Shown piece by piece: positions 13,548-62,547 of a DNA stretch of 64,000 bases. A program made the position numbers and the translations under genes. Each line of letters starts with the position of its first letter. Position 1 is the stretch's first letter. The stretch is from NCBI GenBank assembly GCA_009760855.2, contig WPIO01000033.1, forward strand, positions 1,078,001 through 1,142,000, read 5' to 3'. Origin of the DNA: Cristatella mucedo. Taxonomy: Eukaryota; Bryozoa; Phylactolaemata; Cristatellidae. The notes under the pieces were generated by a model. That model saw nothing but the letters and a program-made list of their open reading frames with translations. It made no database searches and was not told where the DNA came from.

Positions 13548-14535
13548 GATAATAATAATAATAATGCACTTGATAAAGCGCCGCCCTCAGAGAACTCAAT
13601 CTCTTTCTAGGCGCTTTACATTTACTGCAAAGGGAAATGCAATTGAATGGTGAGTGAAATCATGCTTGATAAACAAACAAAATGAATAATATGGTTAGGG
13701 GTGACATGCACACGGTCAGCATGCAAATGTGGTTAGTGGCAGCATGCACAGTGTCAGCATGCATAAGCACATCAAGGACGAATCGTAGGGACCCACTAAA
13801 TGCTGTCCTAAATAGGTGTGTTTTTAAGTTCTTTTTAAATGTGGTCAGGTCAGGAGATGTTGTGACGAAAGTCGGGAGGGAGTTCCAGGCTTTGGGAGCA
13901 TACGAACTAAATGCACGGTCTTCAAAGGATTTGAGGTTTGTACGAGGTATTTGTAGACTGTTGGATTCCGAAAAGCGGGTGGTACGATGCTTGGCCTGAT
14001 ATGCTGCTTGATGACAAACCAGTGCAGGTCGGTGAGAAGTGACGTAATGAGACAGTTGTGATGTTACATTTAGACCTACCTAGCTACAGAGTTTCGCACG
14101 AACTGTAAGTATGCCCAGGAAGACGTGCCTCAAGTGAGTTATGAAAGTCTAGTCGGGATGTCCCAAATGCATGGATCAGCTTGGATGTGATATCCTTATG
14201 TAAGCAGGCCTACATTTTTGCAACGGCACGAAGCTGAAAGTATGCTGACATTAATGTGAAGGTGACGTGCGTATCTAGTGAAAGGTCACTTTGAAGAGGA
14301 CACCCAAATTTCGTGCAGATGCAACAGAAAATATGCTGGTAGAGCCCATTTCGAGGGATAGTGTCCCCGATTTTTGAGTCACCACAGGTTTGCCCATGGC
14401 TAGTAAGTTGGTTTTATCGTCATTCAATTCGAGTAAATTTGCTGCCATCCAAGTGCTGATAAAAGTACATGCTGCAAAGGAGTTGAACATGCAGAAGGCA
14501 AGGAAGGATCAAACCACAGGTACAGCTGTGCCATC
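13548..14535 (-). mobile_element. LINE 3' half, degenerate, tandem to previous copy
   Basis: A second copy starting with (ATA)n at 13548 and the tail motif, same order of blocks as the copy at 12195, with TWMAANLLELNDDKTNLLAM-like sequence near 14400. It lies only about 100 bases from the previous copy in the same orientation. Confidence 0.75.
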
Positions 14536-15147
14536 TGTATTCAAATGAAAGTTTGATTGCTCGTTAATTCAAAGGATGCCTTGAACAGTTTAACCTCTCC
14601 ATAGAATTAAGTAAATACTTTCTCGTCTAGTCAGTCACAATTCAATCGCAGTCTTTCGCCCAATTACTGTTCACTACCTCGGCCTAGCTCCTTGTGTAGC
14701 CATTCCTCTCATTTGTCTTCACTTACTTCAGATGGGCGTTGCTTTCTGTAATAAAATTACGCCTCCCCCCGAAGCAGCTCGGCGAGCAAAAATATCCAGC
14801 CTACCACGGTTTCATTAAGTAGAAGGTGCCGATGCAAACGCGCATCCAAAGGCAGATCACACCACCTTTATATGATGGACTGAACGATCAGCTTGTGTCG
14901 CTTTAGAGAGCGATGGTGAAACTTCCGTCGCGAGACTAAAAGCGCTAGGCTGGTGTCTTTTTACTTTTACATTAAACTAGAGCAGTTTTTTAAGTGAATC
15001 ATTCGCTCCGGTTACATATTGTGGAGATCTCCGAGCAAACCGTGATGGAACCTGCTTCTGCTGCTTCCAGCTGCTGATCAGTTAAAATATATCTGTAATT
15101 ATTCCATAGCCAGGTCATTGTGGAAGGGACTATAATAGAGTTTCGGC
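14536..15147. other. Featureless spacer
   Basis: No coding signal or recognised repeat family seen between the LINE fragment and the 15148 frame. Confidence 0.35.
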
Positions 15148-15348
15148 CTAAACAAGACCGATTGTCGAGGTTACGGCGCCTGGGAAGCCTAGACGAGAAA
15201 CCTTGAACAGAAGGAGCTCCGGAGAATAAACCCTTACATCTTGCAAGCGTATTTTTCTAATGAGTCTATGATCTCCATAATCTAGCCAGCTCACATCCTC
15301 ATAAGCAAAGCGTATGGAAACCCCTCGCCTCAAGTACGTTGTCTGCAC
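15148..15348 (-). other. Unrecognised open frame, 66 residues
   Basis: The frame contains YEDVSWLDYGDHRLIRKIRL and is not made of simple or interspersed repeat. Its apparent first codon is GTG, so as a eukaryotic gene it would need an upstream exon. It lies just outside the left inverted repeat of the 15365-16143 unit. I do not recognise it. Confidence 0.15.
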
Positions 15349-15364
15349 GGAGCCTTTAGCATTT

Positions 15365-16143
15365 GAGCCCGATGGCGGTAACCCATGGTAACCCGGGTTC
15401 GCGAAGACTGCGTGTGATAACTACCTGAATATTGGTCCAAGTTATATGCAAATAGGCTAAAAATGTGGGGGTCGTCGGTTCTATTCGTCAGCAGAAAGAC
15501 GGCGATTTCGAAAACGATGATTTTTGTTTCGCAAGTTCACAGCGGCTTAGCAGGTCTAGGGCAAGGATCCAGGGGTCGATCACTAAATTTGAGCCTGTTT
15601 TTTTCGAGAAATGGCTCAAGATTTATGGCTGATTTGGGACAACCGCTGGAGCCTTCTTCGGGCGCCCCACAGAGCGTATTTGCACGTCCGGAGAACTTTT
15701 CTGCCACGAGTCTGCACCACATCGGATGCCGCCAATATTGTCGGGATCTTCGTCCTCACTACCAGCGATACTACCCATGCAAGCACTGGTGCCGTGATTC
15801 CAGACCTCCTGCATAATCTTTTCAGACCAGCGGGTGGCAATGAAGTTCCCGGGAAATGCTTCCAATAACTTGCACACCAGTTCAATTGCGTTGTTAAGAA
15901 CATTATTGGTAACATATTTTATATAGTCATTATAGCCAACCGTATCGCGCATCCTTTCATTGAGCTCTTTCGCACATAGTTTTTCAGATTGCTTCGACAT
16001 GATTCTGACAGTGCTGCTCTTGAATCAGGTCAACGGCGTTTTGGACTTATAACGCTATATATTTTAGAGCAGCTATCCGCAAAATAAATGATTGCGATTC
16101 TCCTTTCGGAAATTCGGTAACCCGGGTTGCTGCCATCAGGCTC
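15365..16143. mobile_element. 779-bp unit with 20-bp terminal inverted repeats, candidate small DNA transposon
   Basis: The left end GAGCCCGATGGCGGTAACCC (15365-15384) and the reverse complement of the right end (16124-16143) match at 17 of 20 positions. Both ends are flanked by ATTT in direct orientation (15361-15364 and 16144-16147), which looks like a 4-bp target duplication. An AACCCGGGTT palindrome sits near each end. The interior carries one 125-codon frame. Too small for a normal transposase gene, so if real it is non-autonomous. I do not recognise the family. Confidence 0.4.
15623..16000 (-). CDS. Hypothetical protein, 125 residues
   Basis: A true ATG starts a 125-codon frame, starting MSKQSEKLCAKELNERMRDT. 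Residues 1-66 look helical (VTNNVLNNAIELVCKLLEAF), residues 78-90 are acidic (SEDEDPDN) and the C-terminus is Pro/Lys-rich (GRPKKAPAVVPNQP). The helical pair with a central Pro has a faint resemblance to Dpy-30/RIIa dimerisation hairpins, which is a guess. The frame has no simple repeats or LINE similarity, unlike most long frames here. A TATATATTTT stretch about 50 bases upstream could serve as a TATA box. It lies within the inverted-repeat unit and downstream of the CEP131 3' end on the same strand. It may be an exon fragment rather than a whole gene. Confidence 0.4.
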   Translation of the reverse strand: MSKQSEKLCAKELNERMRDTVGYNDYIKYVTNNVLNNAIELVCKLLEAFPGNFIATRWSEKIMQEVWNHGTSACMGSIAGSEDEDPDNIGGIRCGADSWQKSSPDVQIRSVGRPKKAPAVVPNQP

Positions 16144-16429
16144 ATTTATCTAGCCATGATTATGGCTTGTTTCGGTAGCTGCAACTCGATCTGCCTTTAA
16201 CTACAGTCTGGCTTAAATGTAATTGGCTTTTGGCTTAAATGTAATTGGCTCAATCATCCGATATTGTACGATGGCAAATGCTGACTAAGCAAAAACAGCA
16301 GAGCCATTAAATGCTAGCAAGGTACGATTCCTCTCACCCTCACATGCTAGCACCAGGTGCATTTAAGTTATTGCAAACAAAAAACAATGTCTCGAGGAAA
16401 CAGGCAAACATTTAGCGGACAATGAGAGC

Positions 16430-17137
16430 AACTGCAGTCATCTTTTTATTCACAAAATCTCATATTCATCACAGTCATGGAAGAAAGCACCCGAGTGACG
16501 AGTGACACAGACGACAGCAAAGGCACAAAAACGTGCAAACAATTACAAGAGCAAGTATATCAAGCAGAATACGAGCGTTGGTCCTCGATCCAACAAGCAA
16601 ATGCAGCTGGCAGCACTGTCCACTTGCGTGGGTGGGTTAGTACTGCACACTTGCGTCGGCAGTACTACCCACCCACGAGCCACGTGAAGGAAATGGCCGA
16701 GAGTGTGCTGATACTTGCAGCTACAGCCAGCGGTCGTGGCTCCAGCCTCCGTAGAAATATAGGAAAAAAGAATGGCTCGGAAATTTTTTTGCGGCACCCT
16801 GCACTACGACGGGCTGGATGCTGTTGGACACTCGGGACTGCAGTGAGACATCGCGAATGTGTGTCTACCAGCATGCCGAAGTGTACTAGATTGGCCTGCA
16901 GCCTGAGGCAGCCGATCAGACCCTACTCACGAGGATCGAGGAGCATTTGCTAATACTTGTGAGATGGACTACACAAGTTCAACTGGAAGTGGAGGCTGTC
17001 TCTCCCTCTCCACGAGATCACGGTGGCTGCTGACCCACTCACAGTGATTGAGGCAACACCGCTCGACGCGAAACCAGACAGCTCGATGACAGCATTATTG
17101 GCTCCATGCCTTCTGGTGAACTGTAACTTCGCTGTGC
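16430..17137 (-). other. CEP131: CEP131 3' UTR with probable polyadenylation signal
   Basis: After the stop codon there is about 700 nt with no conserved coding signal. On the minus strand an AATAAA hexamer lies at 16450-16445, the first good poly(A) signal I see below the stop. The actual cleavage site is unknown. Confidence 0.5.
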
Positions 17138-17282
17138 CTACTTCTTTCCGCCACCACCGAGAAGCTGTTTTCGCTGCTGCTCGAGCAATCCCTCCAGGTG
17201 GTCGGCGCGCTTCACAGCTGCCTGGTATTGCTGCTTCAGCTGTGCCATAACCTCCTCTTTCTTGACGATAGCTTGTTTTACC
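17138..17282 (-). CDS. CEP131: CEP131 coding exon 15 (stop codon)
   Basis: 145 nt entering in phase 2 after TTCCAG. The peptide VKQAIVKKEEVMAQLKQQYQ, then AAVKRADHLEGLLEQQRKQ, is the conserved C-terminus; it ends in a short Gly run and two Lys before a TAG stop at 17140-17138. Confidence 0.95.
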
Positions 17283-19961
17283 CTGGAATTGAAAGCAGTG
17301 GAACATAGCAGAAATCCCAGCGAATTCATCACAGGCTAGGGCTTGCATCGTGCTGGAAGCCAACATCATCATAGAAAATGAATGTGACATTGTTACGGAC
17401 ACCATACAGGTACGGGTGGTTGTCATGCCTTATTACCAGCAACTGTCAAGTACATAGAAGAAAATGAGATCTCTCAGGGTGCTATAAAGATGTTTGGTTA
17501 TTATTATTGCATTACCGGTGGGACGCTAGGAAAACGATTTATCTATTTTCAACAACAACGGCATGTGAACCTTGGCACAGGTCATCAGCACTCATCTACT
17601 AAGTCACATTGGGCAGTGGTGGCCCAGGAGGTAAGGTGCTTGCCCTTCACGACCGAGGTCGTAGGTTCGAATCCTCCAGTGGGCGACCCTTTATTGCCAA
17701 CTGCGAGTGGTGGTGATAGCCGCTAAGACTCTTCCATCACTATACAAATGGAGCTGTTAATTAGCTAATATATATATATATATATTAGCTAATTATATAT
17801 ATATATATATATATTAGCTAATTATATATATATATATATATCAAATGTGCTGGTTTGGTCTAGCGGTTAAGGTGCTTGCCCCGACCAAGGTCTGACTGAG
17901 GTCATGGGCTCGAGCCCCGAGGCGTATGTGAAGCGCCTGAATAGAGATTAAGTTCTCTTGGGACGCTATATAAATGAATTATATATTTTTATACCACAAC
18001 AATACAACCAACTGCATATGTACGGCTTAAAAACAACGGGTATTATTTTGATTGGTGGCCAAACAAGTTAAGTGTATCAACTTGCCAAAGTCTCTTGGAA
18101 TAACTTGTGATCAATGGAAGCACTTGATTCGAGTATTTTCGAGTGTCAACTGCTTCAATGATAGGCATGGTTTGACCGTGTATAACAACAGTTCATCAAC
18201 TGGAGAATTTAATGGTAGAATGTGACCATGACGGCTGGTTAGCAGCTTCGGCAGCTTTATCTTGATCCTGATGGCTATCGAAGATGGTGAAAGAGTGGTT
18301 GACTAATGGCTCAGATTAGTTCCACTAACTTCACTTCTGTAGGTTAGCCACTCCTTAACTTGGACTTGAAGGCTTTTCGCTGGGTAGTGGCAACACCAGC
18401 TACTCTATACAGAATAGAGGCAGCCACACACACACTATCAGGAAAACGTATTTAATGTCATAGGGCGTTGCACACCCACCAGGTCTATCCTATCATAAGG
18501 AGACAGCATAGCATCCACAGTTTTTATTGTCAATCTCACAGCTGCTCCCTCCTGTTACATGCCACCAAGCACAGTGGCAGTTTTCGGAGCTGTACACCTC
18601 TCCGAGGGTGGGCCAATGACAATGGACGTGCTGTCACTGCCGGCCGTGACGAGCAGCCTTAATCATGGTCGTGTGGCCCCACTGGCTGGCAGGGTGCTAA
18701 TGAGTGCAGCTTCTTGACAGCTAGTAACCTAGTACGGCCCCGAGGTCGGAGGCCCACCAGTGCCCGGGGGCAGGCAAAGGGCTCCCTCCCTCAAGTCCAA
18801 ACCCGACCCAAAACGGAAGCGCCGTCGACGACACGATCGAGCACGGCTGAGGTAAGCGTGCCAAATGTTATTAGCACAAGCAACACAAACACTGACCACA
18901 GCTTGGCCACAGCCCAGTGTGGTGTGTGCAATGCTAGTCAATTATTAAGTTAACAAGCCCAGCTGAGACTGCAGAGCTTGAGCCTCTAGTGCTGCCTGCT
19001 GGATGAAGCAAGAAAAACGCTGCCAGGGCCACGCTCGGGCAGCCACGTTCTCACTGCAGGAACTGGTCAGCTGTGCATGTGCCTCGGTAATATTAACAAA
19101 GATATTTTTCGAGCTTTCATGAATGCCCAAAGGAAGTAAATGACGTGGAGCAACTAAAGTTGCATGTTGGACCTCAGGCTCTTAGCAGGCGGTGCTGGCA
19201 AAGATAGGACTCATGTTTGCTGCGGCACCATGACTGCCAACCATCAAAACCGTCATCATTATGGCAAAAGTCACACGTAATCAAAAGTAACTGCCACACA
19301 TACACACACATGTAATAGCTACCTACATGTATGTCATATTGACCATCTCTGTCTCTGTCTCTCTTCTTTCCCTACCATTCCTGGGCTTTTTTTATAGCTT
19401 AAAAAGCACTTTCTCGGCAGGCCTTAAGTTTCAACAGAAAGTGGAGTGTTGCAGTGAATCGCTTTCGTAAGCTGCCAGGTTCTCCCGGACCTACTGTCTC
19501 TACCAGTGTCCGGACTTCCACTATCACTCACCCCTGCTTGTCTTCAGCAGGCATGCGTTTGGGTGGTGGCAGCTTGCCGTGTTTGCATGGCGACAAACAC
19601 CCAAGCGGCTGCTTCACCTTCCCCGGTGCCAGCCACGTAGGGCCCACATTTCTTATGGATAAAACGTCTCCGATAATAACTTCAGTCAGTGAACCAACAC
19701 AATTTACTATGCGAAACACCAACAACCTATCCTTGGCTTATTAGCAAACTGCAGAGATCTATAGGCCGTGACAGCGGCACTGGCACAGACATCTCCAGCA
19801 CTGGCACGAATAGTATCCTACAGTGCAGCTCCGTAGCCCCGACCCTGTAGACCAATTGAGCTAATGGAAGTCATTTTGAAGGGAACCAGGAACGGTTGCA
19901 GTAGGTACTTGGCTGCTGTGAGACCAATTGTGTACCCCTATAACTAAAATTCGATCGACGA

Positions 19962-20044
<83 letters not shown>

Positions 20045-21802
20045 AAACACGTACATCTGTATGTATGAAACGAATGCATACAGAGCAAAATAGGTCATTT
20101 CTAGGATAAGAATAACTAGCTATTAACACTCTTAATCATATCTCATTTGACAGATGCAGCAGGGGGAACAGCCAGAGCACTGCATCAAAACTGCAGCACT
20201 CGACCGTGCAGTAAGCATAAGCAAGCAAGGTATTCATGGAAAGTGTGATTTCAATGCAGCTCTTGTGGGCAGGACACGAGCTGCATTCGGTGGCAAATGC
20301 AACGTAGCAGTGCACAGCAGACGGAGGCGGGCATGGTCGCACACTTGGCATTTCAGAAAGTGATTTCGGGCTTTAATCCGGCAATGTCAGCCATGCGATG
20401 AAACTAGAGTTGAGCAGAAATGCTCTTAAGTCCTTGGCGACCAGTCTTACTCTGTGGCACGATGTAAGTCCTTATAGTTGTTTACGCTCACAATAAGTTT
20501 ACCGAGCTGTCTTTATGTAAGAGAACGCAATATCGTGCCAAGCCAGCGTGCAAAAGTGGCTACTCTGCATTAATGCAATTCCGTCCCACAGAAATGGTAA
20601 ATCATTACTGCTATTATTGTTGATTTTATTATTGCTATTATTCTGACCGGTGAGCAAAGCTCTCGGCGGCAGAGTTTGCTGAGTTGCCGGCGAGCGAAAC
20701 GCACAGCTGAGCAGGCGCCGGGTTCTGCGCTCGCTCGAGCGAGGCTGGCTCACCTCTTGTGCACTTCCTCCATCTCCTCTTCCTTGCTTTTCTGCGCCAC
20801 GTCAACGTCGAGCTTCATGCGCTCGATCTCTAGCTTGTGCTTGGACCTGAGCTCGGCCATGTCCTGCTTCACGCGTCGGTTCTCCTCCTCGGTGGCCACC
20901 AGGCGGTCGGCGAACTCCTGCCGCACGACCTCCTGCACCTGGTCCCTTTCGCGATACAGCTTCTCCGACATCTGACGGACACGTAACGAACGGCACTCGT
21001 CAGAATGCACGGCCAACGGCAGGGGGGGTGAGTAAGTGAGGTGCCTTCCGGCAGACTGCTGGATGAAAGCGCTAGATTTTCCGAGTCACTGTGTGTGGCA
21101 TGTGCATAAATAAAATAAATCAATCCTAGCTGATTTAACAGCCTCTTTTTGTATGGCGACAGAAGAGCCTTGACGGCTATCACCACCGCTTGCAGCTGCG
21201 ATAAAGGATCGCCCACCACAGGATTCGAACCCGCAACCTCGGGGTCGAGGTCGTGAAAAGCAACCACCTTACCTAGTGAGCCATTACGGTGCTCTCGCAT
21301 TCACCACTTGCTCGTGCCCAAAAAGTAATAATAATACATTTATATATATCCTCAGAGAACTGAATCTCTTTCTAGGCACTTTACAGATGCTGCATAGAAA
21401 GCATCACATCGGCAAGAGGAATAGTCGTACGAGGTATGGCTAAACGATTATAACGAAAATAACGACCCGACCAAGGTCTGGCCGAGGTCGTGGGCTCGAG
21501 GCATATGTGGAGTGCCTGAATAGAGATTCTTAGGACACTTTACAAATGAATTATATATAAGGATAAATCACAAAGACCCACTAAGTGCTATATGAGAAAG
21601 AAGGCCACTAACGCAGAAGGCAGACATGCAAGAAGTCCAACACACGACTCTCACTCGGGGCCTGGGTTTCGAAACTAGAAAGTCGCGTGTCTAGCCACTC
21701 GAAGCATACCGTTGGAGCTCGAGAACGAGGAACAAGAACGAAAACGAGAAGGCAGCCGTGAGGCGATCGCCCTTCGAACAACAGCGTGGGCCAACAGAGC
21801 GA

Positions 21803-21852
<50 letters not shown>

Positions 21853-22778
21853 CCTTCTTGACGTCGTCAATCTCGTGATCTTTCTGCTTGAGCAGTGCGC
21901 GACAGCGTTCGAGCTCGGCGCCGACATCCACCAGCTTGGCCTTGGCTTCGCCATACTTCTCCGCGGCCTGCCTCTCCGAGCGCTCCAGCTCGGCCATCTC
22001 GCTCTCGTACTTGTCCCTGACGCGCCTGCACGAAGCAACAGCAATCAAAGCCGCTCATCGGCTGACGGACTGCCGACTGAGGTGTTCGAGCCACCACTCT
22101 CCGGCTCGCTAGGTGGCAGGCCCCGGCACAGGTCGCAGCAGCAACGGCAAAATCGCGAGCTGCTTGCTAGTGAACGCGGCATTGGCAGGGTGAACGAGGT
22201 GGTAGGGGCGCGAGCCGGCACACGCTGAGCGACATGAAAGGACTGGGGTGCGACGGCCCGCCCCTGCAGGCGTGCTCACTCACTTGATCTTATTCTCGGC
22301 GGCACGCTCCGACTCCTCGCGTGCCGTGGCAGCATCGTCCTCGAGGCGCGCTATGACCAGCTCGATCTCCTTGTCGCGCTCGCGACGCACCTGCTCCTTG
22401 AGCTCTCGCTCTCGCTGCGCCAGCCACGCCTCCTGCTTCTTCAGCACGTTCTGCTCCCAAGCCTCGCGCTCGACCGCCTGCCGCTCCTTCAGCTCCTGCA
22501 GCTCGGTCTGGGAGGACACAAAGCAGACCCTGCTCAGCAAGGAGCCCTGCTGCTGCCTGCTGCTACCGCCACTAGTCATTTAGTGGAGCCACTGAAAGTC
22601 AGGAGTGGCGAAGCGCTTTTGCAAAACGATATTCTGACGTGCGACGAGAGCGTAATCGAGCACTTTCACAGCTCGGCCTAAACGTGCTTGCTTAGCAAGT
22701 GGGCAGAGTCTAAAGTACCAACCAGTACCAATCCCCTTCCATAAAAGGGTCGGTGTTGCCGTGCTGCAGTTCGAACAG

Positions 22779-22860
<82 letters not shown>

Positions 22861-25800
22861 CGCTAAGAGGCAGCAAGTCTGCAAGGGGTGCCGTGTGTCG
22901 TGGGCCACGGTGAGTCTAGAAAAGAAAAATTATGGCTACGATTTTGTACAATTCTCGTTTACGACCCTGGAAACAGAGGTTTTCAATGATCGATACTTGG
23001 CTGACTGCTGCAGCAGCAGCCACTATGCCGACTTGCAGAGAGAGCAAAATAAATCGTCGCATTTTATAAATGCCATTAAAGATAATCACAGAATGTTAAC
23101 TGTTGCTCCAAGACGTGCAGTTCACAAGCCTCGAATCAGTATGTATCAGGCTGTAGCAAAATTCCCTCTCGCAGCCCCCCAATATGAATGCAGCTGATCG
23201 ATGGTTCGAGAATTGAACCGTTGATCTAGACTAGATCCGATTCGGTCATCACACTTGAGTTAAAAGATGCATTTGGGCCCAGTTACGCCAAGAAACCTAG
23301 CGATACACGTCGAACAAGCAACAGGCAGCAAGCAAGTCGAGCACAGAAGCTCGAAGAGCAAAGTCACTTCGAGCTTCGAGTCAAAGGTCACGACTGCAGC
23401 CATTGCTACAAGCGATTCCACCACCCTGGGCGACGACGACGGTGGCGGTGCGCAGGTGACTCTAGACTTTTGACCTTGGTCTAGCTGAGACCGGCTGAGA
23501 TGCCGAGCGAGTGACATTGCACGACAGATCGCTGCTAAGGCGTCACCATTACCCGTAGCAAGCCCGGCGGAGCGCAGCGGTGGTGCGACAGCGTCCCCCC
23601 CCCCCGATATCGCCACCTTTGCAGCACCACACAGACAGTGCAGTCTGTCCGACCAGCTCGGGAGCATGCAGCGCTCAGTCGTGTGCTCCACAGGCAGCAG
23701 CCGCTGCGAATCTCACCGCGTGCCGGCGCTCCTGCTCCTCGCGAGCCTTCTCGTATTCGGCCCTCGAGGCGGCAGCGGCGTAGGCTTGCGAGTCCTCGCC
23801 CTGCCGCAGCAGCTTGTCCATGTCGGCGCGCTGCCGGCTGGCCTGTTGCGCCAGCCTCTCCTTCTCCTCTTGGACCTCGGCGTACAGGCGTCGCCGCTGC
23901 TGCTGGTATGCCTCCTCCTCTGCCTGCAGCTGCTTCTCATACCTGAGCAAGTGCGCAGGTGCTTAGCAACTAAGCGACTAAGGGCGAGGGATGGACGGCA
24001 GAGAGGGAGGGGGAGGTTCGGGCAGCGCCGCCGCCGAGGCTGACCTCTGCGCCGAGGCTTCGCGCTCTCGCTGGCACGCCAGCTCCTTCTCCTTGGCCAG
24101 CTGGTCGCGCAGCTGCTCCGTCATGTCGACGTAGCGCTGGCCGGCACGCTCGTCCGCCTGCAGCAGCTCGGCCTCGTGCGCTGCTCGCAGCTGCTTCAGC
24201 TCCGACTTGTGCTTGCCGATGAGCCGCTGGATTTCCGGCTCGAGACCCTTGACCGTCATCTCCTGCTCAGGAGGAGGAGGACAGAGGAGAGCAGACGAAA
24301 TGAGCCGCCGGCAGACGAGGGTGGGGAAGGTGTGAGAGATGCAGCCGCCACCGGACCGAACCGCACGCGCGGTGGCTGCAGCATTGGGGCGAGAGCGACA
24401 CGGTGGGACTCGAAGCAGCTGCAGCTGCAAATGCCCTGGCGAGGTCATCTATTTGAGCCAGCCCTGCTCGCCCCACTGCGCGAGAAGGCTGCATGAAAGT
24501 AATGAATGACAGCACACTTGCATCCTTCCGATCAACTAGAGCTCGCCCCTCGCCTTCACGGTCCTTCCCTTTCCGACCTTTTGCTTCCCGATCATTCCTT
24601 TTCCGATCCTTTCCCGGGCGCACTCGAAGGCCTCATCACATGCCACTCAGCACCCGAACAGCAGGAGAGAGAGGGAGAGAGAGGGATAGAAAAAGAGAAA
24701 ACGAGTGAGAGAGAGAGAAAAGCTGTGCGCAACTACTGCTGGCAAGCTTCGCGGAGTGGCCCGAAGGTCAAGGAAGTGTTTAGGAGCAGGCTGCCGAAGC
24801 AGCTGGGGACCGGGCAGTCGATCCACTTGAGGTAGGAGAGAACACGCACCTTGATCTTCTTTGTCTTCTCTTCGATCCACTTCTCACGCTTGAGCTTCTC
24901 CGACGCGGCGAGCACCTCCTTGGTCTTGGTCAGCTCGGCTGCGTGGCCGTCTTCCAGCGCTCGAATTTTGTCCACGTATTTCTTCTCCATCTGCTTGAAG
25001 TCCTTTACCAGTTGCTCGCACTTTTCCGTCAACCCTTTCTTGTCATCTATGAGCTACGCGACGACAAATGAAAGGTGAGCAGCCGTCCGAGTGGCAGCAG
25101 CGATGCGGTAGCGCTCGGGACTGTGGCAGCCGAGCGCTGCTGGGGGGGGATTGACGGGCGGACGCTGCATGCTACAGCGAGCCACTGCATGGTGGCGTGA
25201 GACAGCTTGCCGGCGTGCCTGGTCTATGAACGACAGGTGCCGCTTGATCGTCTCTTCGTACTCGTCCTTTTGCACGCTCAGGCGCTTCTTCATCTCCTTT
25301 TCTGTCTCCTTGGCATGTCTTATTGTCAGCTCGCGCTGCTGATTCTGCAACAACGGGAAGCTGCTGTCAGCTGCTAGCAGACAGCCAGGTAGAGGCAGCA
25401 GCAAACTCGAGCAGCAACATTGGCCACGCATCATCAAGCACACATCCGCAGCCCAGCCCACTCTCCATGCACCGTAGGCACCGTAGGCCACTGCTGCCTC
25501 ACGTGCCAGCTACGGTATGGATGCGCCGCCCGCGCAGAACTTGCACTCGTTAGGCCCTGCTGCACAGTGGCTCCCGGTCTTGCTTATCGGTCTCGGCTTG
25601 AGCAGCCACCGCCCCCTCCTGACCGCTTGCCAGACCAAAGGCACGATGCTGGATGAGACAATTGAGTCCCTGCTCCAATGGCAAGCAGTGGCACTTGCCC
25701 GAGATGGCTGCGACTAGATCGGTTAACTTTGTTCAATAACAAAAATCTGCTTGCATTGCCAGTCACTACATTCGTTTAGTTTTTAAGTTCAGAAGCTATA

Positions 25801-28800
25801 GGGTGTATGTCAATGGCTGTCAATGGCTGCGAATCTCATCAGCTAGGAGTTGTTAGCCAGGAGTGACTAACTTAGTTCCGTGTTTGCAAGACTGCAAAAT
25901 GATAATACTAATAGCAATGTGAGAGACATTCATATAGCATCGTAAGAGAACTAAATCTCTTTCTAAGCACTTTAACTAGGCTGTAAAGGAAGCATGCCAA
26001 TAGGTTAGTGATAGCATGCTCAACGTCAGCAACCCTACGCACACCAAGAACAATTCACACTGATCCAGCAAATGCTGTGAGGAATAGGTGCAAAGTTAGC
26101 TTCTTTTTTAAATGTCTAGTCTGTCAAAACATCTGTCGGGAGTGAGTTCAAGTCTTAGGGAATACGAACTGAACGCACGACCTCCAAAGGATTTGAGGTT
26201 ATAATAATAATAATGCACTTGATATAGCACCCTCGGAGAACTCAATCTCTTTCTAGGCGCCTTAAATTTGCTGCAAATAGAAACGTGATTGAATGGTGAG
26301 TAATATCATGCTTGGTAAACAACATGAATAACATGGTTAGGGGTGAAATGCACAGAGTCAGCATGCAAATGTGGTTAGTGGCAGCATGCACAGTGTCAGC
26401 ATGCATAAGCACATCAAGGACGAATCGCAGGGACCCACTAAATGCTGTCCTAAATAGGTGTTTTTAAGTTCTTTTTAAATGTGGTCAGGTCAGGGGATGT
26501 TCTGACTCAGGTCGAGAGGGAGTTCCAGGTTTTGGGAGCATACGAACTAAATGCACGGTCTCCAAAGAATTTGAGGTTTGTACGAGGTATTGGTAAACTG
26601 TTGGATTCCGAAAAGCGGGTGGTACGATGCTTGGCCGGGTGGGGAAGTAGATCTGAGAGATAGGCTGGAGCCAAAGAATGAAGTGACCTAAAAATGAGTT
26701 GAGAGAATTCAAGGTGCTCGAAGGTTGGGAGGTATCAAAGCAAAGATACAACTGAGTGTCATCCGCATAGAAGTGAATGCCTAGATTGTGCTTGGCAATC
26801 ACACCAGCAAGAGGGAGAGTATAAACCGTGAAAAGAACCGGACCTAGCACAGAGCCCCGAGGTACCTTATATTTCAGAGGTACCTCGGAAGATCTTTGTC
26901 CATTCATGTCAATACTCTGTAGTCTCCCACTGAGATAGGATCTGAACCATTGCAGAGCATTGCCAGTGATGCCCAGGCGAGATGAGAGGCACTCAAGAGG
27001 AACTTTGTGGTCGATAGTTTCAAAAGCTGCCGAAAGATCGAGCAAAACAAGCCGAGACACTCTACCCATGTCTGCATTCCTAAGTAGGTCGTTGTACACC
27101 CTAAGCAATGCTGACTCTGTGGAGTGAGTAGCTCTGAAGCCAGACTGGAACTTACTAGCAATGTGTTAAGTTTCAATATATGAGTTCAGCTGGTCCACCA
27201 CGACCCGTTCCAGTGTCTTTGATAGGAATGGTAGAAGGGAGACTGGGCGGTAGTTGCTCAAGTTCTCTCGGTCTAGTGTCGCTTTCTTGAGAAGTGGCCT
27301 GACAACAGCTTTTTTGAAAGGTGCTGGGGCATGACCTGAGGCTAATGACATATTAATTATGTTAGTTATGCATGGCAGCAGCAGATCAATGCAACGTAGG
27401 AGCAGGACAGTGGGAATGGGGTCCAGAGGACTTGTCTTCTTTGATTGGGATATGAACTTCAGGACGAGATCACCAGTGACCTGCTTAAATGTAGACATTG
27501 AGGTGCAGGCAGGAATCGGGGAACAGCATTATACTGGGATGTTGTCATCGAAGGGATGGACTCCCTGATCTTGTCTATCTTCTGCACAAAGAATCGAGAG
27601 AAGCGATCGGCTAGATCATCACAAGTAACACCTGGTAAGGAGCTAATCTGGGAGCGGTTGAGATGATTGATCGTCGGCATCAGCATTTTTGGATTGTGCA
27701 TCTGTGATTCAAAAATTATTGTATAGAAGCTAGACTTGGCCTTTGCTAGGATCGATTGGTACGACCTACAGTAGTCTTCATATGCCTGTCGATGGACAGT
27801 CAGTCCTGATCTTTGTATGCTTTTTCAAGCTTGCGCTTAGTAGACTTGGCTAGTTTAATGTCTGCAGTAAACCATAGGCCGTCTGGGCTAGGGCGCACAG
27901 TGCACTTAGTCAGAAGTGCAAATTCGTCGAGCGTGTTAGCTAGTGTCGTGTTGTAGCTATCTACCAATGATGACAGATCGGAGGGAGGACTGAGCAGCAG
28001 AGGCAAAATAGATATTTTCGCATGGACAGCATCGATGTCAAGGGTCTTGAGGTTTCGTGATTCACAGGTTATTTTGGAGGAGCGGGTGGGCACACACTGT
28101 AGATTGAATGAGATTTGCATGTTGTCAGATAAGCTGGATCTGGTAATAATTGGTGATGACAAGGTGGTTGTATGAGAAAATCTGGTTGAGTGTGATACCC
28201 TTGATGTGAGTAGGGCCATGCACATGAGTCACAAGAGACAATGAGTCAGTCAATGCACGAAATTCAGTGCTGAAGGCATCAGATAAGTGATCAAAGTGAA
28301 CGTTGAAATCACCCATAACGAGGAAGGATCGATTTCTTGCACACAGAATCGAAATGACTGGGTTGAAAAATGAAAAGGTTGGTTCGAGGTACAGTTAAAT
28401 GACTTGAATCAGAAAAGCTGTAAGGGTAAGATGCCTAGCCTGGTTAGGGATCAGTACATATAGGTAGGCTGGAGCAAGAGAATGAAGGAGCCTAGAAGTC
28501 AAAGGTAAAATCTCGACGTCTAAATGTTGCTTGATGGGGAGCCAGTGAAGGTCGGTGAGAAACAGTGTAATGTGGCATGCATGGCGTCCCTGACAGACGC
28601 TTCGGATGCACCTTCAACAGCCATCGATTACTTCGGCTGCTTCTTTCTTACAGACTTCCGGAGCCGACATGATGCTCCGAGCAGCAGCCATGCTTGCTCT
28701 CCACTTTCAATGTGTAGGATAGGAGCTGCTGGTCATCGATGGAATACCAAAGGTGGCAGTGCAAACTAGAAAATGCAGAACTTTCTGGTGCAACATCCAC

Positions 28801-31800
28801 ACAGTTGCTGGTGACTATTGATGACACAGTGCATCATTACAGTAGGCATTCGATCAACAACGGATGATACGGTGAAACAGAAATTGATGACTATATAGCA
28901 AGTACGACATAGTGAAATAGTGAAACGACCCGGCAGAGCAGCAGTCAAAATCAAGCCCTTGGCCAGTGAGAAGCAACTTGCTATTCAATTCCATAGAGAG
29001 GCGGGGTTCTGTGCAGCGCTAAAGTGCATACATTTGGCATCGAATGAAGGGCCCGATATGAGGCCATGCCGAGTTCAGCATAGCTGTTCCGCCCTATTAG
29101 TGGCAGCCAGCCTTGTCCTTGCATCGACTTTTCGCAGCTACATGCGACTTGCGCCGCACAGCTTGCACGTGTACGCGAGTGCAAGTCGCTGTGCGACTGT
29201 CGGGTTAAAGCAAGCAGCTACACCTGCGGCAAAAGAACTAAACTCCTTGCACAGGTACAGTGGTGTGTGCGCGCTTGTGCCTCCGAGCGTTTGCCCAAGC
29301 TCTCGCTCATTCCCACCAAACGGCGCAGCCGAGCCGTTACAACGATTGAAGCAATTCAAGTCAGCCGCGATGGCGCACTAGGTAAGGTGGTTGCTTTTCA
29401 CGACTTCGATCCCGAGGTCGTGGGTTCGAATCCTGCTGCGGGTGATTCTGTATAGCCGCTGCAAGAGGCGACGATAGCCGTAAAGGCTCTTCTGTCGCTA
29501 TACAAAAGAGGCTGTTAAATCAGCTAGTATTTTTTTGTAAGTCGGCGTAAGGGTTGCGGCAGCCACACATGTGGCGCTTCGAGCGCCAACGAGGCGAGGG
29601 CTTGGCAAGCGGCAGACACTCGCTGCACGCATCGTGTTTGCGGGCTCCCTACCAGCGCTTTCTGCAGCATCTGCAAGGTTCGAGTCTTCTCCTCGAGCTC
29701 GAGCCGCTGACTGATGACGGCGTTGGCCACCTCGCTGGCAGCCTGCGACGCCTGCTCCATCTGTGCCAGGTCGCCAGGCGACGGCACGACCAGAGCCGGT
29801 AAAGCGGTGGCCGCAAAGCTGACCGTCACCTTTTCGACCTCCTGGCAAGGAAGAACGAGCATTGTAGCGCCAGAGAGCTGACAGCGCGACAGACTTCGGC
29901 AGGAGGCGACCAGCAGCAGCAGTGTAGGACTTTAGGATCGAGCTGCAGATCAATGGGACCGACGCTCTCGCAAAAGCCTGGCAAAAGCATCGTCTGGCCG
30001 AGCAAGTGCTTGAGAGGCAAGCTGTCTGCAAAAGTCGCTCAGGCTCTGCACCATCAAGCGAATGGCTGCCTTGCACAATCGACAAGCAGTTCGGAGTGGG
30101 GAGGGGGACACGTCCGTCTCTTGTGCTTATGCATGCTGACACAGTGCATGCTGCCACTAACCACACTTGCATGCTGACCCTGTGCATGTCACCCCTAAGC
30201 ATGTTATTTATGTTGTTTATCAAGCATGATATTACTCACCATTCAATCGTGTTTCCCTTTGCAGCAAATGTAAAGCGCCTAGAAATAGATTCGAGTTCTC
30301 TGAGGGCGCTTTATCAAGTGCATTATTATTATTGAAAGATTCAGACCCCTCAGCAAACTCCTGGCCATGTTCTACGGAGAGGGATCTTGAACGGCTGGCT
30401 GATGAGCCTACAAACAAGCACTGAGTCAAAATAAAGTTAATAGCAGCTGATGTGACAGTATTACTTATACATGGAGGCAGATAAGCCTTTTAATTTTAAT
30501 TTTTACCACGAATTTTACCACGCCTACAGCAGTCAATAAGAGGACTGCCTGCTGCAGCACCAAAAAACGTGCAAGCACCTTGCTCGTAGATTCCGTAAGC
30601 CTGCAGTGCGCATAACTTCTCCTTACTCTATCCATTCTCTTCATCAGGCGAGGCCGCATCAGAGGACAGCAGCTGCTCAGGGGTAGGGCTCGACCGGTGC
30701 CACAAAAACTGGTCAGCCATAATTTTTTCAAGCAAACCACTGAGTACTAGCTAGTGTGAGCGTGACAAGGAATGAAAAGGTGAAAGGGTCTACAAGAAAC
30801 TTAGTTATTTCTTATCGGCTAGGCATTCAGTTTGCACATAGCTTGTGAGTGCAGCAGTGCCGACTCCATTTGTCATTTAACTCACGCACGACCCGATGGG
30901 CCGGCCGGAGTAGTGAGACACGAAGCTAGGGAGGCCGAAGCTTGCCGACTCCATGCTAACTAGTGGCCTGTAACCCGTAGCTGGACACTAGTGGCCGGGC
31001 ACTCACCATCAGGATGAGCAGCGAATTCGTAAAACTGGTGGCAAAACTACATCGTGCTGTTTCGAATGCTCTGCATCTAACCCCGGCACCCCTAATCTCC
31101 CATTCCAGTCGACATTGTCACGAATGGCAGTAAGGAAAACCAACGTCCCAGCAGTGGCATCAACTGAGCACCAGTCACATTAGAAATGTGCTGCACAGCT
31201 ACAGAAGCCACTTGTCTCACTTTCTTCACTCTCATATCTCTTTCATATGACTGTACACACATGCATATGCACCTGGCACACATACATGCACGTGCGAGTG
31301 CATTAACACATACAAACCTAGTTAAACATACATTTGTGTCCTCTCTCATTTCATCTCTCTCTTTCTGTCTGTCTGTCTCTCTCTCTCTCTGTCTCTCTCT
31401 CTTTAACGTACCGTCTCGATGTCCTCGAGGCGGTTACTCGTGTCAACCTCATCAAGGAAAGAGAGGATGTTTCTCATTTTGGCATCGGTTAGGTTGGCAC
31501 TTCGCGAGACGGCGGCATCCTGATCTCCGGATGCACCAGCAGCCGCGGCTGCTGCCTCGGCCGCAGCTGCGTCGAGCCTGCGCAATCTCTCCTCCGACAG
31601 GCCGCCTCCTCCTCCTCCTCCCCTATCAGCCACCAGCGAGGCGGTCGGATTGCCGTCGTCGTCATCGTCTTCACCTGCAACCAGGACGGACGTCGAATTC
31701 GCGAACCCCGGCAAGCCGCCCCAAGGCAAGCCCGGCAAGCCGCTGCGCGGACGTGGTGGTGGTGGCCAGGAGTGGGTGGCTGCCGCCATCGCTCCACGCC

Positions 31801-34800
31801 ACGCGCACGAGAGCCGCCGAGGAAGTGACCACGTGCGAAACAGACCCCACGCTGTCGGGCGCAGCCCTTCCGGCGGCTGCAGGCGCTCTTCCTCCTCCAG
31901 CACCTTCAGCGTGCTCATCAGATCCTCGAGGGTGGTACGCGTCGCGGCGGCGCTGCTGGCAATCGAAACGCCCGAGGCCGCGCCGAGTGCGCTCCTTTCT
32001 GTCTGCTGACCGTCCGCGCCCTGCAGCGGCAGCGGGCATGAGCCAAGACCAGTGCGAGCAGCCGTAGCGTCGCCATCCACGACAGCGAGATGCAGTCGAT
32101 GCACGACCGGCCAATAAGCCAGGCGAGCGCAAGGGTGCCACAAATACAGACGTGCATTCGACTGCAGTTCACCGTGAGTCCGGTATTGACTAGGGGATTG
32201 CTGGATGGACCCTCGATACACCCGCTTGGTCTGACCGTCGGTCTGACTCGTAATGCCCGTCATTCGTTCACGCCAAAGCAAGACCGGCATGCTCATGCAT
32301 GGGTGGAATAGATAAAGTCTGGTACGTGCGTGCGAGCCTGCACTTGCTTGTGGGTCCGTGCTCACAGGTGCAAACACGCATGCCCCACGCTGGCGGAGGC
32401 ATCTGCCCAGTGCACGATGGGAAGCACGTGCGAGTGAGCCTGTGCAAGAGGCTAGCTCAACTTGCAAAATGTTAGCCACCGAGCCGGCGATGGCCGGCGA
32501 TGATGGCTGCGCTGGCGAGTGTGGCCATCGATTCGGCAGCTGGTTCGTGCTCTGGGCAACATCTAGTTGTGCCGACGACGGTTGCAACCTGAAAGTGCTA
32601 TCTCGGAGGTCGGCAGCCAATAGGAGGTGGGGGTGTTTGGGTTTTTTATCGGCTGCTCTTGGAATAACGAGCACGGCGGAGCTGCGGTGGTCTCTGCTGA
32701 CCGAGCATTTGAGCCGCGATTTAGTGCAACACAAGACCAGGGCAAGTTACTGGCCTAACGCGAGCAGGAGCTGCAGCAGCAGCTCGGCACCCAAGAGAAG
32801 TTGCTCCACATGCTGTGCTAAAATGCCGGCTAAAGGTCTACACAGGTGGCAGCACACGACAGCGAGACAGTTGAACTGCACCACCCTATTCCTATGCCGA
32901 ACGCTCCATAATTATAGGACCGGCATTAAGGAGTTTATGCCCGGCAATTTTCCCACCTTTTTGGTTCTGTGCTTCATTCGATCTACTAGCTATCACATGA
33001 TACTTGGTAATATTCGGGATTCTCCTTAGCACTCAAGGTACGATATACTGCTTTTCTCGAAACTTTGCTGGCTTCCCCATCAAGTAGAGCACCGACTTCA
33101 AGGCCACAGCGTTCACTTTTTTTTTTAAGCGAAACTTAAAGCTCCACGCGTTTCTTACGAAAGCACACATGCTCCACCACTACCACCTCATGCAAATCGC
33201 CCATTGCCTGCTTATGCCTGCTGCAATTGTGCATGCTAATACCAGCAATCCCTTGATATGCTTCTCTATAGCGTATGCCTCCGCGTGCCCAGAACAGAGT
33301 TAGTTCCTCGGAGTGCTATACAAATGCTTATGGAGTCGGTCATATTAGCTGCCATGAGTACACAGACCGAGATAGTCTACTAAGGAAGCAGCCCTCGAAG
33401 CAGGAAAAGCAGGGCGGAGGCCACTGCCAGGGCAGCCTGCTGCTACAGCGGAGGCGCCTGCCAACGCCACTATAAAAAAAGTACCAGCTGATTTAACAAC
33501 TTCTTTTGTATAGCGACAGAAGAGCCTTTTCGGCTACCACCACTGCTTGCAGTGGCGATACAGATTCGCCCACCGCAAGATTCGAATCCACGACCTCGGT
33601 ACCGAGGTCGTGGAAAGCAACTGCCTTACCTAGCGTGCCATAATGGCCCATCACTGTAGGCCAGTCATCGGCTGAAGGCCTGCGAGGGCACACGAGGACA
33701 AGGGAGAAGCGCAGCCGATAAAGGGGCGGCTGAGCTCTCAGCTTAAGTCTTAGCCAAGAAGGAGGCTCTCGGTAAGCGATCTTCACAAGAAAACCTGCTC
33801 ACAGAAGATGCGAGGGCTCCCACTGGGAAGCTAGTTAGGGCATTCAGATGTATTCTGCGAGCACTGACAAGAAAACCGACCTACTCGAACCGAGTTCAAC
33901 AAGAATGCTTATCGCTACTCCAATCGAGTGTATGTAGCGAGTACAAGCGGCGGACAGTCGAAAGCATTCTTGCAATTCTTGAAAGCCAACGAAGAGGCAG
34001 GCCACCATCTTATCAAAACTTATCCTATCTGCCATCTTATCAAAACGTGCCGAGTCTGACCATGCCAGGCTGCCTGGACAGGGTCAGGGCTGGCAGAGGC
34101 CCACTTGACCTAGAAGTGAATACGACCTAGGCCGAATAACAAGTTGGGATGTGGAGCAGGTGATTTCGAAGGCGGAGGCTGGCAGCCACGGGTCACGTGC
34201 AGGCAGCATGAGCTTCCGGCATGCAAGAAGCCTCCCCAAGCACCAAGATCTCTTGGCAGACCTAGATTCCTCGGCCTGGGGCTCTTGGATAAGAGGAGTC
34301 GTGCCAAGCAAACCGGGTGCTTATAGTCGCAGGGGAGAAGTCCAAAAAGCTCCGGCACATGACACACGTGACCTCTTAATATAAAGAAGTTTTCTTCAGT
34401 TCATCTCAATCAGGTTGACCAAGTTTGAAATAGGAAATGCTATCTGGGCCTAGCGATCCAGTAGGCTTGAATCACATGTCATCCAGGATGCTTCGTACAG
34501 GATAGCTTAATATGGAATTCCATTTGAATGCTTGCAGGCTGCAGACCGATATCAGTGTAGAGAGGCTTGACTTTGCTACTTCCGTGGGCTCAGCCCCCCA
34601 CCCCCGACATGGTGATCCAGGCCACAACCGGCTCACTGTTGGGTACCACAGAAGGCTAGATTTGTCAAACGATACAGGAAGTTCCAAATGAGGTTCTCCA
34701 TGTGTCAGAGTGCCAATCGCCTCGGGTAACCTGCCAAGGTTGATATCCCTATGGGATGCACTATTGCAGGGCTACTCTTTGTGACAGCTGTAGAAATGGT

Positions 34801-37800
34801 CAAATGTAATACGGCATCGGTAGTCCCATGAGATCCCGATCGCAGAGAATCGATGTGTGCACTGATGACATTGCCATCGCAATCCCCTTGTACAGACCAG
34901 GTCAGCAGTGTGCGCAGAAGCGCCTGATGCAGCTACTCACGAGCGTCCAGGTGGCTTCTCAGCCCGAGCAATCGTTGATTCCGAGAAAAAAGGATCGGGC
35001 TCTGTGCGGAACACGGCTCTATCTCCCACCCATGAAAACTAGCTCCGGTGACCGTCAAAGCTCTATTTTATCAAGCCTATCGATGCGCGCAACAAACACA
35101 GACAGGGTTATCCTTCCCCCTCCAGCCAGCCAGAGCTGCACACATGGATGCCACAGTCACCACGCAGCAAGCGCAAAACAGCTCCACAACACAATTGGTA
35201 CACACCTGCTGAAGCTGCTGCTGCTGCGGTTTCTGGTTGCCGTCGACACCAACATCACCACCAGCAGCCATGCCACTACCCAGCTGGTCGGCCCACTCGT
35301 CAGCCCAGGATGCCTGCGAGGCAGGGGCGGCGCTGCCGCGCTGCTTGGTGGCGCCGCTGCCGCCGGTGCTTCGGTCCAAGCTGGAGCCAGCCTCTTGCAC
35401 GACTGCAGCCGCCGCTCGTCCGGCCGACCTCGATCCAGAAGCCGCCGCCGCTGCGCTAGCTGCCGCCGCACCCCTCGGGGTCTTGGCTTTGCCACCCACG
35501 CCGACGGCGGCACCAACGCGGCCGCCTGCAGTGCCCGTGAGCTGTGCTAGCCGGCCGGAAGCCTTCAGCTGAGCGACCTCGTCCTCGGCCTTCTGGCGAA
35601 CGTCAAGCTTCTCTTTCTCTCGCTTCAGCCTCAGCTCCTGCAGTGAGAGCGGCAGCAACTCGCGGCCACGACCAATGAATGCGCCGCCGCAGCTCGTCGC
35701 AGCAGGCAGGCGACCACGCTGGCCGGCACGCTGCCGCAGCAGCCTGACAAATGATAGAGAGCGCGCTCGCGCCGTCGGAAGTACCTCGATGGCCTGCAAC
35801 CGCGCCTGCCGGGCACGCTCCTCACGCAGCTGCTGCCGCCGGCGGCCGTCCTGCTCGAGCTGCGCCGACGAAGCGCCAAGGCCGTCGCCCGCCAGGCGGC
35901 GCTGCTGCTGCTGCAGCTGTCGCTCCTTCTGCTCGTCCATGAGGCGCCGCATGGCCGCTTCGGCGCTGCGCCGCGCCTTCTTTTCGCGTGCGCAGTGCCT
36001 GTACCAGCGTTGGATGCGCGATGCGGCCGAATTCACGCTGCGTATATACTCCTCGGCAGCATGCTTGCTCACGCTGGGCACGGATGAGGCGGCAGTGGCA
36101 GCAGTAGCGGCGGGCCCAGACGACAGGCTGCGCACCAATGAGGCCGAGCCGGAAGCGCCGACGGCAGCTATTGCAGCAGCGGTCGAGCGAATCTCGTTCA
36201 CAGGAGTCTTGTGCATGATGTTCAGATACGAGTTCTCCATGTCGCTCAGCGACAGGCGAGCCGCTGCAGCTGGCCGACTGCTGCCGCCGCCACCAGCGGC
36301 ACCACTGCCTCCGCCCGCTTCTCCTGCCCAGTTCCGGCCGCTGGCGGCGGCACCAGCTGCCGCCGAGCTCTTCATCGTCACCGCATTGTTGGCCGCGTTG
36401 AGAGCCTTCTGAGCTGCCGTGCTTGCACGCAGCAAGGGCGCCGGCGCTGATCCGCTGCCACTTCCACCGGCCCTCGTGCTGTTCACGATCACCGCATCGC
36501 TACCTTGAGACAGTAGCCGAGACACGCGGGCTGCTGCAGCAGCAACGACGGGATCCACCTCGTTGTTCAGCATGCCGCCGTCGTCGTCACTGCTGGTGAA
36601 ACGCGGCGACGGCGTGCGAGCCGCGGCGGCTGCAGCAGCAGCAGCGCTGCCGCCGACCGCTGCAGTGGACGAGGGAGTGCCGGGAATGCTGCTGCCGTCA
36701 CCGTCGAAAGCGCTGCCACTCAGCGAGCTGTCCGGCCGGAACACGCTGTGGCTGTACCACGAAGAAGCGCGGCTCTTCTTGGATGCCGAGCTCGGCGTGG
36801 CGCCGGCAGCTGCTGCTGCGGCAGTGCTGCTGCTGCCGCTGCTTCTACTGCCGTGCTCGGCTGCCTTTCTCTGAAACAGGCAGTTTAGTGCCGACGGTGG
36901 TGCCTAGCAACACTTACCGAGGTGACAGCAGTGGCAGCAGTGGATGGATATTGGTCTACGTGCTGCGTGCGCAGACGAGCAACACGCCGCACGAGCAAGC
37001 AGCCGCCTGCAACAGAGCCCTGTGCGCATGCGCCTCCAGTCTCCCTCAAGGCTCGCTGACGGCCGACTCAGCCCAGACACATCCGCAGTCGTGCAGGAAG
37101 GGCATCATTGCCCAATAGCAGCAGCCATGCTCAACCTAGTGGTCAGCCTTGCAGCTTGCACAACTCAGCCGGCATAATACTTGCCGGTCCAAAAAAAAAA
37201 GATCAAGCGATTCCCTCCTTAGTTCTGTATTCCTTTTTTTGCTGTTGTTTCTGAACCCACTCACCACTGACCCTTAAATTCTCCCCCACATCCGTAGTTT
37301 TTTTTTTTTAATTTAGTCCTATCGGTCATTCGGTCGACTTGCCAGTGAGTGTGTTAATGTGTGTTTGCGTTAATGTGTGTGCACATGCATAAGCACATAC
37401 TCTCGAGTAGGGTAGATAGAAGTCGGAAGCATTGGCAACCCCTTGTTTATGAGAAGTATGCAGCCGACCAACATTAGACAGAAGCACTAAGAACGAATGG
37501 GCCCAATTAATCAAATGCCTTTCATGAGTGTTATCATAGCCCAGTGTATACAACCAAAGATAAAGAGAAAAAGCATTTTCGACACTTAAAATCCATTGAC
37601 AAATGGCAGCCCTCTCCATTTTATAGTGCCTTGAGAACGATTGCACTGTCTATTTTTGGAGGGTCCAAGACCTGCGAACTAGTATGAATACAGCGGTGCA
37701 CCGGTTATACTCATTTCCTGGCCTCACGCTGTCATAAACCAGCATTCCTAGGACTACCTAGTTGAGTGGCATTACGAAGGGCAAAATATAGGCTTGGTAC

Positions 37801-52701: not shown

Positions 52702-62547
<9,846 letters not shown>

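Follow-up and report, generated by a model that had tools for sequence, protein, structure and literature searches.

As far as the excerpts of the cited papers go, Sola2 transposons have short TIRs and 4-bp A/T-rich target duplications of the form AWWT (ATAT, AAAT and ATTT) (PMC3627910). In P elements, the 2.9-kb parent has 31-bp TIRs, and the internally deleted, non-autonomous copies range from 0.5 to 2.8 kb, some of them coding for a truncated protein (PMC7776569). MITEs are under 800 bp, piggyBac duplicates a TTAA target and Tc1/mariner a TA target (PMC5199201), and Ginger elements have 5'-TG...CA-3' ends and TIRs of 40-270 bp (PMC10741241). We have analyzed a compact unit in a 64,000-nucleotide stretch of Cristatella mucedo DNA, hereafter the window. 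This unit is very probably a non-autonomous cut-and-paste DNA transposon, now dead, that arose by internal deletion from a DUF7869-coding parent with 28-bp TIRs.

The left end of the unit consists of ATTT followed by GAGCCCGATGGCGGTAACCC (window 15361-15384) and the right end of GGGTTGCTGCCATCAGGCTC followed by ATTT (16124-16147). The two ends match in inverted orientation at 17 of 20 positions, with an end-to-end length of 779 bp, and align at 26 of 31 once one 10-bp gap is allowed. The AACCCGGGTT palindrome, inside 13-mers, lies near both ends (15390-15399 and 16119-16128), and one ATG-started frame of 125 codons occupies the minus strand. Apart from the gapped alignment, this is the structure that a preliminary description had reported from the window, and it was confirmed. 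An inverted TTGAGCC/GGCTCAA pair just beyond the stop of the frame (15584-15625) echoes the GAGCC of the element ends. The features of the unit and of its longer relatives are collected in Table 1.

Table 1. Features of the unit (window positions) and longer copies with both ends found elsewhere in the genome
Feature	Position	Strand	Length	Remarks
Whole element	15365..16143	-	779 bp	Member of the 823-bp internally deleted family
Left target-site duplication ATTT	15361..15364	.		Identical to right copy; other copies have their own tetramers
Left TIR and subterminal repeat	15365..15399	+		8 bp lost from the left end relative to the family majority
Right TIR	16116..16143	-	28 bp	With AACCCGGGTT palindrome core
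Right target-site duplication ATTT	16144..16147	.
125-codon ATG frame	15623..16000	-		Deletion-fused remnant of the parent protein
Frame part from parent N-terminus	15771..16000	-	~77 residues
Frame part from parent C-terminal region	15626..15770	-		Shifted by the 14-base loss in the window copy
Internal deletion junction	15770..15771	-		Parents have ~1.9 kb more at this point, with the DUF7869-coding stretch in it
Longer copy L077			2545 bp	Both ends; tetramers AATT/ATCT
Longer copy L078			2702 bp	Both ends; tetramers ATAT/ATAT
Longer copy L079			3818 bp	Both ends; length includes nested repeats; tetramers AAAT/AAAT
Longer copy L082			2735 bp	Both ends; tetramers AAAT/ATAT
Longer copy L083			2823 bp	Both ends; tetramers ATTT/ATTT; extra DNA near the left end
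Longer copy L074			1162 bp	Both ends; shorter deletion form; unequal tetramers
Longer copy L075			1237 bp	Both ends; shorter deletion form; unequal tetramers

The unit lies ~1 kb beyond the likely end of a gene with minus-strand exons at 17138-36903, which resembles the centrosomal gene CEP131; three of its pieces (35077-36903, 31403-32746 and 17138-17332) had no Pfam match. Two related LINE copies, 84% identical, lie on the minus strand at 26485-28357 and 45203-46925 with Pfam RVT_1 frames, RVT_1 being found in two of the 10 window frames scanned. One short repeat family, presumably a tRNA-derived SINE, occurs at six sites that are ~71-87% identical (17620-17768, 21122-21284, 29370-29536, 33475-33641, 41266-41415 and 58015-58212), and a 78-bp unit is repeated twice in tandem at 39106-39261 (96%). 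Adjacent inverted-repeat units at 40734-41561 and 41600-41922, one flanked by TGCA and the other by AATT, have a similar CCATAATT-GGCC in their ends and are probably another short transposon family.

Within the window, a 20-mer pattern covering both ends had no third site at up to 3 mismatches, and blastn with the unit revealed no further copy. Rfam matched window 14000-18000 only twice, both times far under the gathering score. Forty dinucleotide-shuffled versions of the window were scanned as well for inverted 20-mers that pair at 17/20 or better over a span of 100-2000 bp. The shuffled windows contained a mean of 4.25 such pairs, and a pair with an equal 4-bp flank was present in 0/40, compared with nine flank-bearing pairs in the real window, the unit included. 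The other eight are tentatively read as repeats copied in inverted orientation, as low-complexity sequence or as belonging to another element.

We have then searched the window's own assembly (572 Mb, 688 contigs) with the 779-bp unit, which gave at least 41 match rows, a lower bound because only 40 of the 464 first-look candidates were scored. These rows represent 40 places, two being pieces of one place and one the window itself. Among the matches scored, the 39 other places were 77-85% identical to the unit; in 26 of them the match comes within a few bases of each end, and 13 are shorter at the left. We have aligned 35 copies with the window copy (36 sequences), leaving out the short L044-L047 and counting the near-identical neighbours L035 and L038 as two. 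The majority sequence is 823 bp long, with GAG...CTC termini and a perfect 28-bp TIR, GAGCCCGATGGCGGTAACCCGGGTTACC, the last 16 bases of which are palindromic. Identity to this form ranges from 84.6 to 92.1% (89.7% for the window copy), with a median pairwise identity of 83% among the aligned sequences. The tree of copies is star-like (summed terminal branches of 3.52 vs. 0.29 for internal ones), and therefore points to an old burst.

The end pattern GAGCCYGATGGCN{1,12}AACCCGGGTT had 57 exact sites in the same genome, compared with 0 for the reversed control. Ten of these sites, the window's own among them, fall in copies already found with the unit, and the remaining 47 are covered by 45 stretches. 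All 25 further stretches examined (26 sites) belong to the family, and L075 and L077-L079, which are also among the 45, carry the family ends too. Scaling the 57 sites by the ten pattern matches in 80 ends (window copy and L009-L047) gives a rough estimate of ~456 ends. The pattern had 0 sites in viral contigs, and the papers returned by a literature search on the end sequences dealt, in the text available from them, only with other subjects.

Identical flanking tetramers were found in 13 of the 36 aligned sequences, a further 12 differing by one base and 11 by more; in this count L023 was compared over 2 bases only, L010 sits in an AT repeat and truncated copies were scored as misses. With the partners shuffled 1000 times, 6.4 sequences on average, and never more than 12, had identical tetramers. 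The identical duplications were ATAT (six), ATTT (three), AAAT, AATT and ACTT (one each), with 11 of the 12 fully compared fitting AWWT, and the tetramers agree within a copy and vary between copies. Three of the seven longer two-ended copies (L078, L079 and L083) likewise have identical tetramers. L078 is inserted in TGACATAT/ATATGTCA, and in many copies a C precedes and a G follows the tetramer. Going by sequence, the palindrome CATATG may be a preferred target. The search with the unit and its ends that the preliminary description had proposed thus returned further copies that share the ends and have 4-bp duplications of their own, and its proposal of a non-autonomous DNA transposon is borne out by the many dispersed copies, their common ends and their 4-bp target duplications.

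Two copies (L058 and L062) have extra coding DNA at one common point. Used as a query against the genome, the L062 piece returned at least 42 rows (40 of 45 candidates scored), and 11 longer loci (L074-L084) were examined. Both ends were recognisable at up to 8 mismatches in seven of them, and L076, L080, L081 and L084 missed one or both ends in the end scan. L077, L078, L079, L081, L082 and L083 match the 823-bp form on either side of position ~375 (coding strand), with extra DNA in between; in L077 the right-hand match begins at 497. In the parents, the matches to short-form positions 1-~375 and 376-823 flank 1.8-2.2 kb, or ~3.0 kb in L079. The junction of the short form joins ..CTGGGTAG to TATCGC.. 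and falls in the window between 15771 and 15770. The extra DNA of L067 and of L050 was rejected as part of a longer parent, the former because its inserts match window repeats and the latter because it starts with a GA run and matches neither the other inserts nor the window. The earlier suggestion of a very small undescribed element was thus half right, as the unit is the shortened form of a 2.5-2.8 kb element. No unbroken full frame was present in any of the 11 longer loci; we therefore infer the parent's activity, and the lineage looks dead in the sample examined.

Nine protein pieces from the longer copies were scanned against Pfam. Two of them passed the DUF7869 cut-off of 26 bits (L078 with 30.7 bits and L082 with 26.3 bits), the L076 piece remained under it with 18.7 bits, and the other six, including the 490-codon L081 frame, had no DUF7869 match. 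A DUF7869 search of the whole genome gave three places over the cut-off (47.3, 34.4 and 33.6 bits), each of which overlaps a place hit by the parent's DNA, and two of these are L083 and L078, copies with both ends. The same search gave no match in 14 control genomes, which is a weak result if those genomes are not animal. THAP was not matched in the parent pieces scanned against Pfam, the L082 DUF7869 piece had no relatives in viral contigs, prokaryote contigs or the PDB, and the L076 frame matched only SHQ1 and kinesin in the PDB, at E 0.067 or worse. A literature search gave no naming paper for DUF7869, whose Pfam name states no function. The DUF7869 stretch sits between the N-terminal and C-terminal parts of the parents, and this domain would be an enzyme, the putative catalytic part of the parent protein.

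The N-terminal sequence of the 125-residue product also opens the L081 frame, and its C-terminal acidic region closes the frames of L075 and L079, continuing in L075 into a stretch like the GRPKK tail of the product. Since both parts match the ends of the parent protein, the 125-codon frame is made of the first ~77 parent residues and part of the tail. The window copy has lost 14 bases, which puts the tail of the frame out of register, and it has an early stop, TAA at 15623-15625, in place of the TCA of the family majority. In some other copies the frame continues as NQPSILSYFSKK or a near variant of it, a stretch that we take to resemble a PCNA-binding box. The profile search proposed for the 125-residue product matched no family in Pfam, NCBIfam or PHROGs, and the PDB gave no match either. 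PADLOC, viral contigs and prokaryote contigs returned nothing useful, and in phage genomes four records matched 42% of the query at E 0.6. For four of the other copies, longer frames had Pfam matches under the cut-offs or none. The AlphaFold model of the single 125-residue sequence had a mean pLDDT of 48, too poor for a fold search.

Three other explanations of the unit were weighed. A transposon that had captured a host exon, as the preliminary description considered, could account for the single ATG frame, with its RNY codon share of 0.37 (vs. 0.17-0.18 in four of the five other frames, although the antisense frame also reaches 0.37), and for a product without database match. However, elements with the same TIRs carry a longer protein whose two ends contain the two parts of the frame in the same order, which leaves the captured exon unsupported and makes it very improbable. 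A chance inverted match around a chance frame draws on the fact that shuffling the unit 1000 times yields a frame of at least 125 codons in 32 cases, and that 14 of 81 equal-sized window segments contain one, so the frame alone is weak evidence. Nevertheless, the reality of the unit is settled by the copies with the same ends elsewhere in the genome, each with its own duplications; they refute this reading, whose probability is vanishingly small.

The 823-bp form might instead have been selected for its fused protein, for instance as a repressor of transposition like the KP protein of P elements, for which there is precedent (PMC7776569). The deletion does join the N- and C-terminal parts without a change of reading frame, and a frame of at least 120 codons starting with MSKQ or MSEQ survives in 11 of the 36 sequences, but in-frame joining is expected about one third of the time by chance. 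Moreover, the short-form copies give no sign of protein selection in codon-position or substitution counts: changes are about even over the codon positions (373/303/345), and synonymous, nonsynonymous and stop changes (273/711/37) are close to expectation (256.8/720.6/43.6; p 0.34). Selection for the fused protein is thus decidedly unlikely. Among ten parent copies, the longest majority frame (161/373/18 vs. 162.5/370.0/19.5 expected) and the second-longest (108/270/10 vs. 107.9/262.1/18.0) look neutral, and the third, of 91 codons, leans synonymous by counts only (46/84/1 vs. 37.0/89.9/4.1). A broader proposal, that DUF7869 is the catalytic core of an AWWT-duplicating TIR family and that the in-frame fusion of N- and C-terminal parts was once a KP-like regulator, aiding the spread of the 823-bp form or silencing the parent, is unlikely as a whole.

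The unit is thus best read as a deletion derivative, and its family can be placed among known kinds. As in non-autonomous TIR DNA transposons, the TIRs are shared by dispersed copies and the target-site duplication is specific to each copy; larger relatives with the same ends and a putative enzyme gene are present as L077, L078, L079, L082 and L083, all decayed. The AWWT duplications and short TIRs are shared with Sola2, and membership of that group, compared on those features alone, appears somewhat probable. The family resembles internally deleted P elements (KP and others) in consisting of short, probably trans-moved deletion derivatives of a longer TIR parent. P elements make a target duplication of ~8 bp, whereas the family here has 4-bp duplications, other ends and no THAP match in the scanned pieces, and unlike KP its fused frame is without sign of selection. 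It is MITE-like in being short and present in many copies, with TIRs and no working enzyme gene, although 823 bp is at the long end of that class and the parent is traceable through the shared junction. Ginger was set apart by description, the family having GAG...CTC ends and a 28-bp TIR. TTAA, the piggyBac target, occurs in 0 of 13 identical duplications, and the 4-bp duplications, including ATTT, AAAT and AATT, do not agree with Tc1/mariner. A Pack-type element carrying host exons is not supported, since the gene that the inner sequence matches is that of the parent element.

The history of this deletion derivative would have started with a parent of ~2.5-2.8 kb, bounded by 28-bp TIRs and coding for a transposase-like protein with a DUF7869 domain. 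One parent copy would have lost ~1.9 kb within its gene, giving rise to the 823-bp form with both ends kept. The putative DUF7869 transposase would bind the TIRs and excise the element, with insertion occurring through 4-bp A/T-rich staggered cuts. The 823-bp form would then have been inserted at numerous sites, and the parent's enzyme is the most likely agent of this movement, acting in trans. Finally, the copies would have decayed, with the 125-codon frame as what survives of the beginning and the end of the enzyme gene. Of this history, the sequences show the ends, the duplications, the dispersal of copies, the deletion with its shared junction and the protein domain, whereas catalysis by DUF7869 and movement in trans are putative steps.

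As a find, the unit is ordinary, being one among the old copies of a deletion derivative. It illustrates how a deletion can bring the two termini of a longer protein together in a short frame without family match. Its longer relatives tie DUF7869 to a TIR mobile element with 4-bp duplications, and should the same link be seen elsewhere, DUF7869 proteins of this sort could be labelled transposon derivatives and not host genes.
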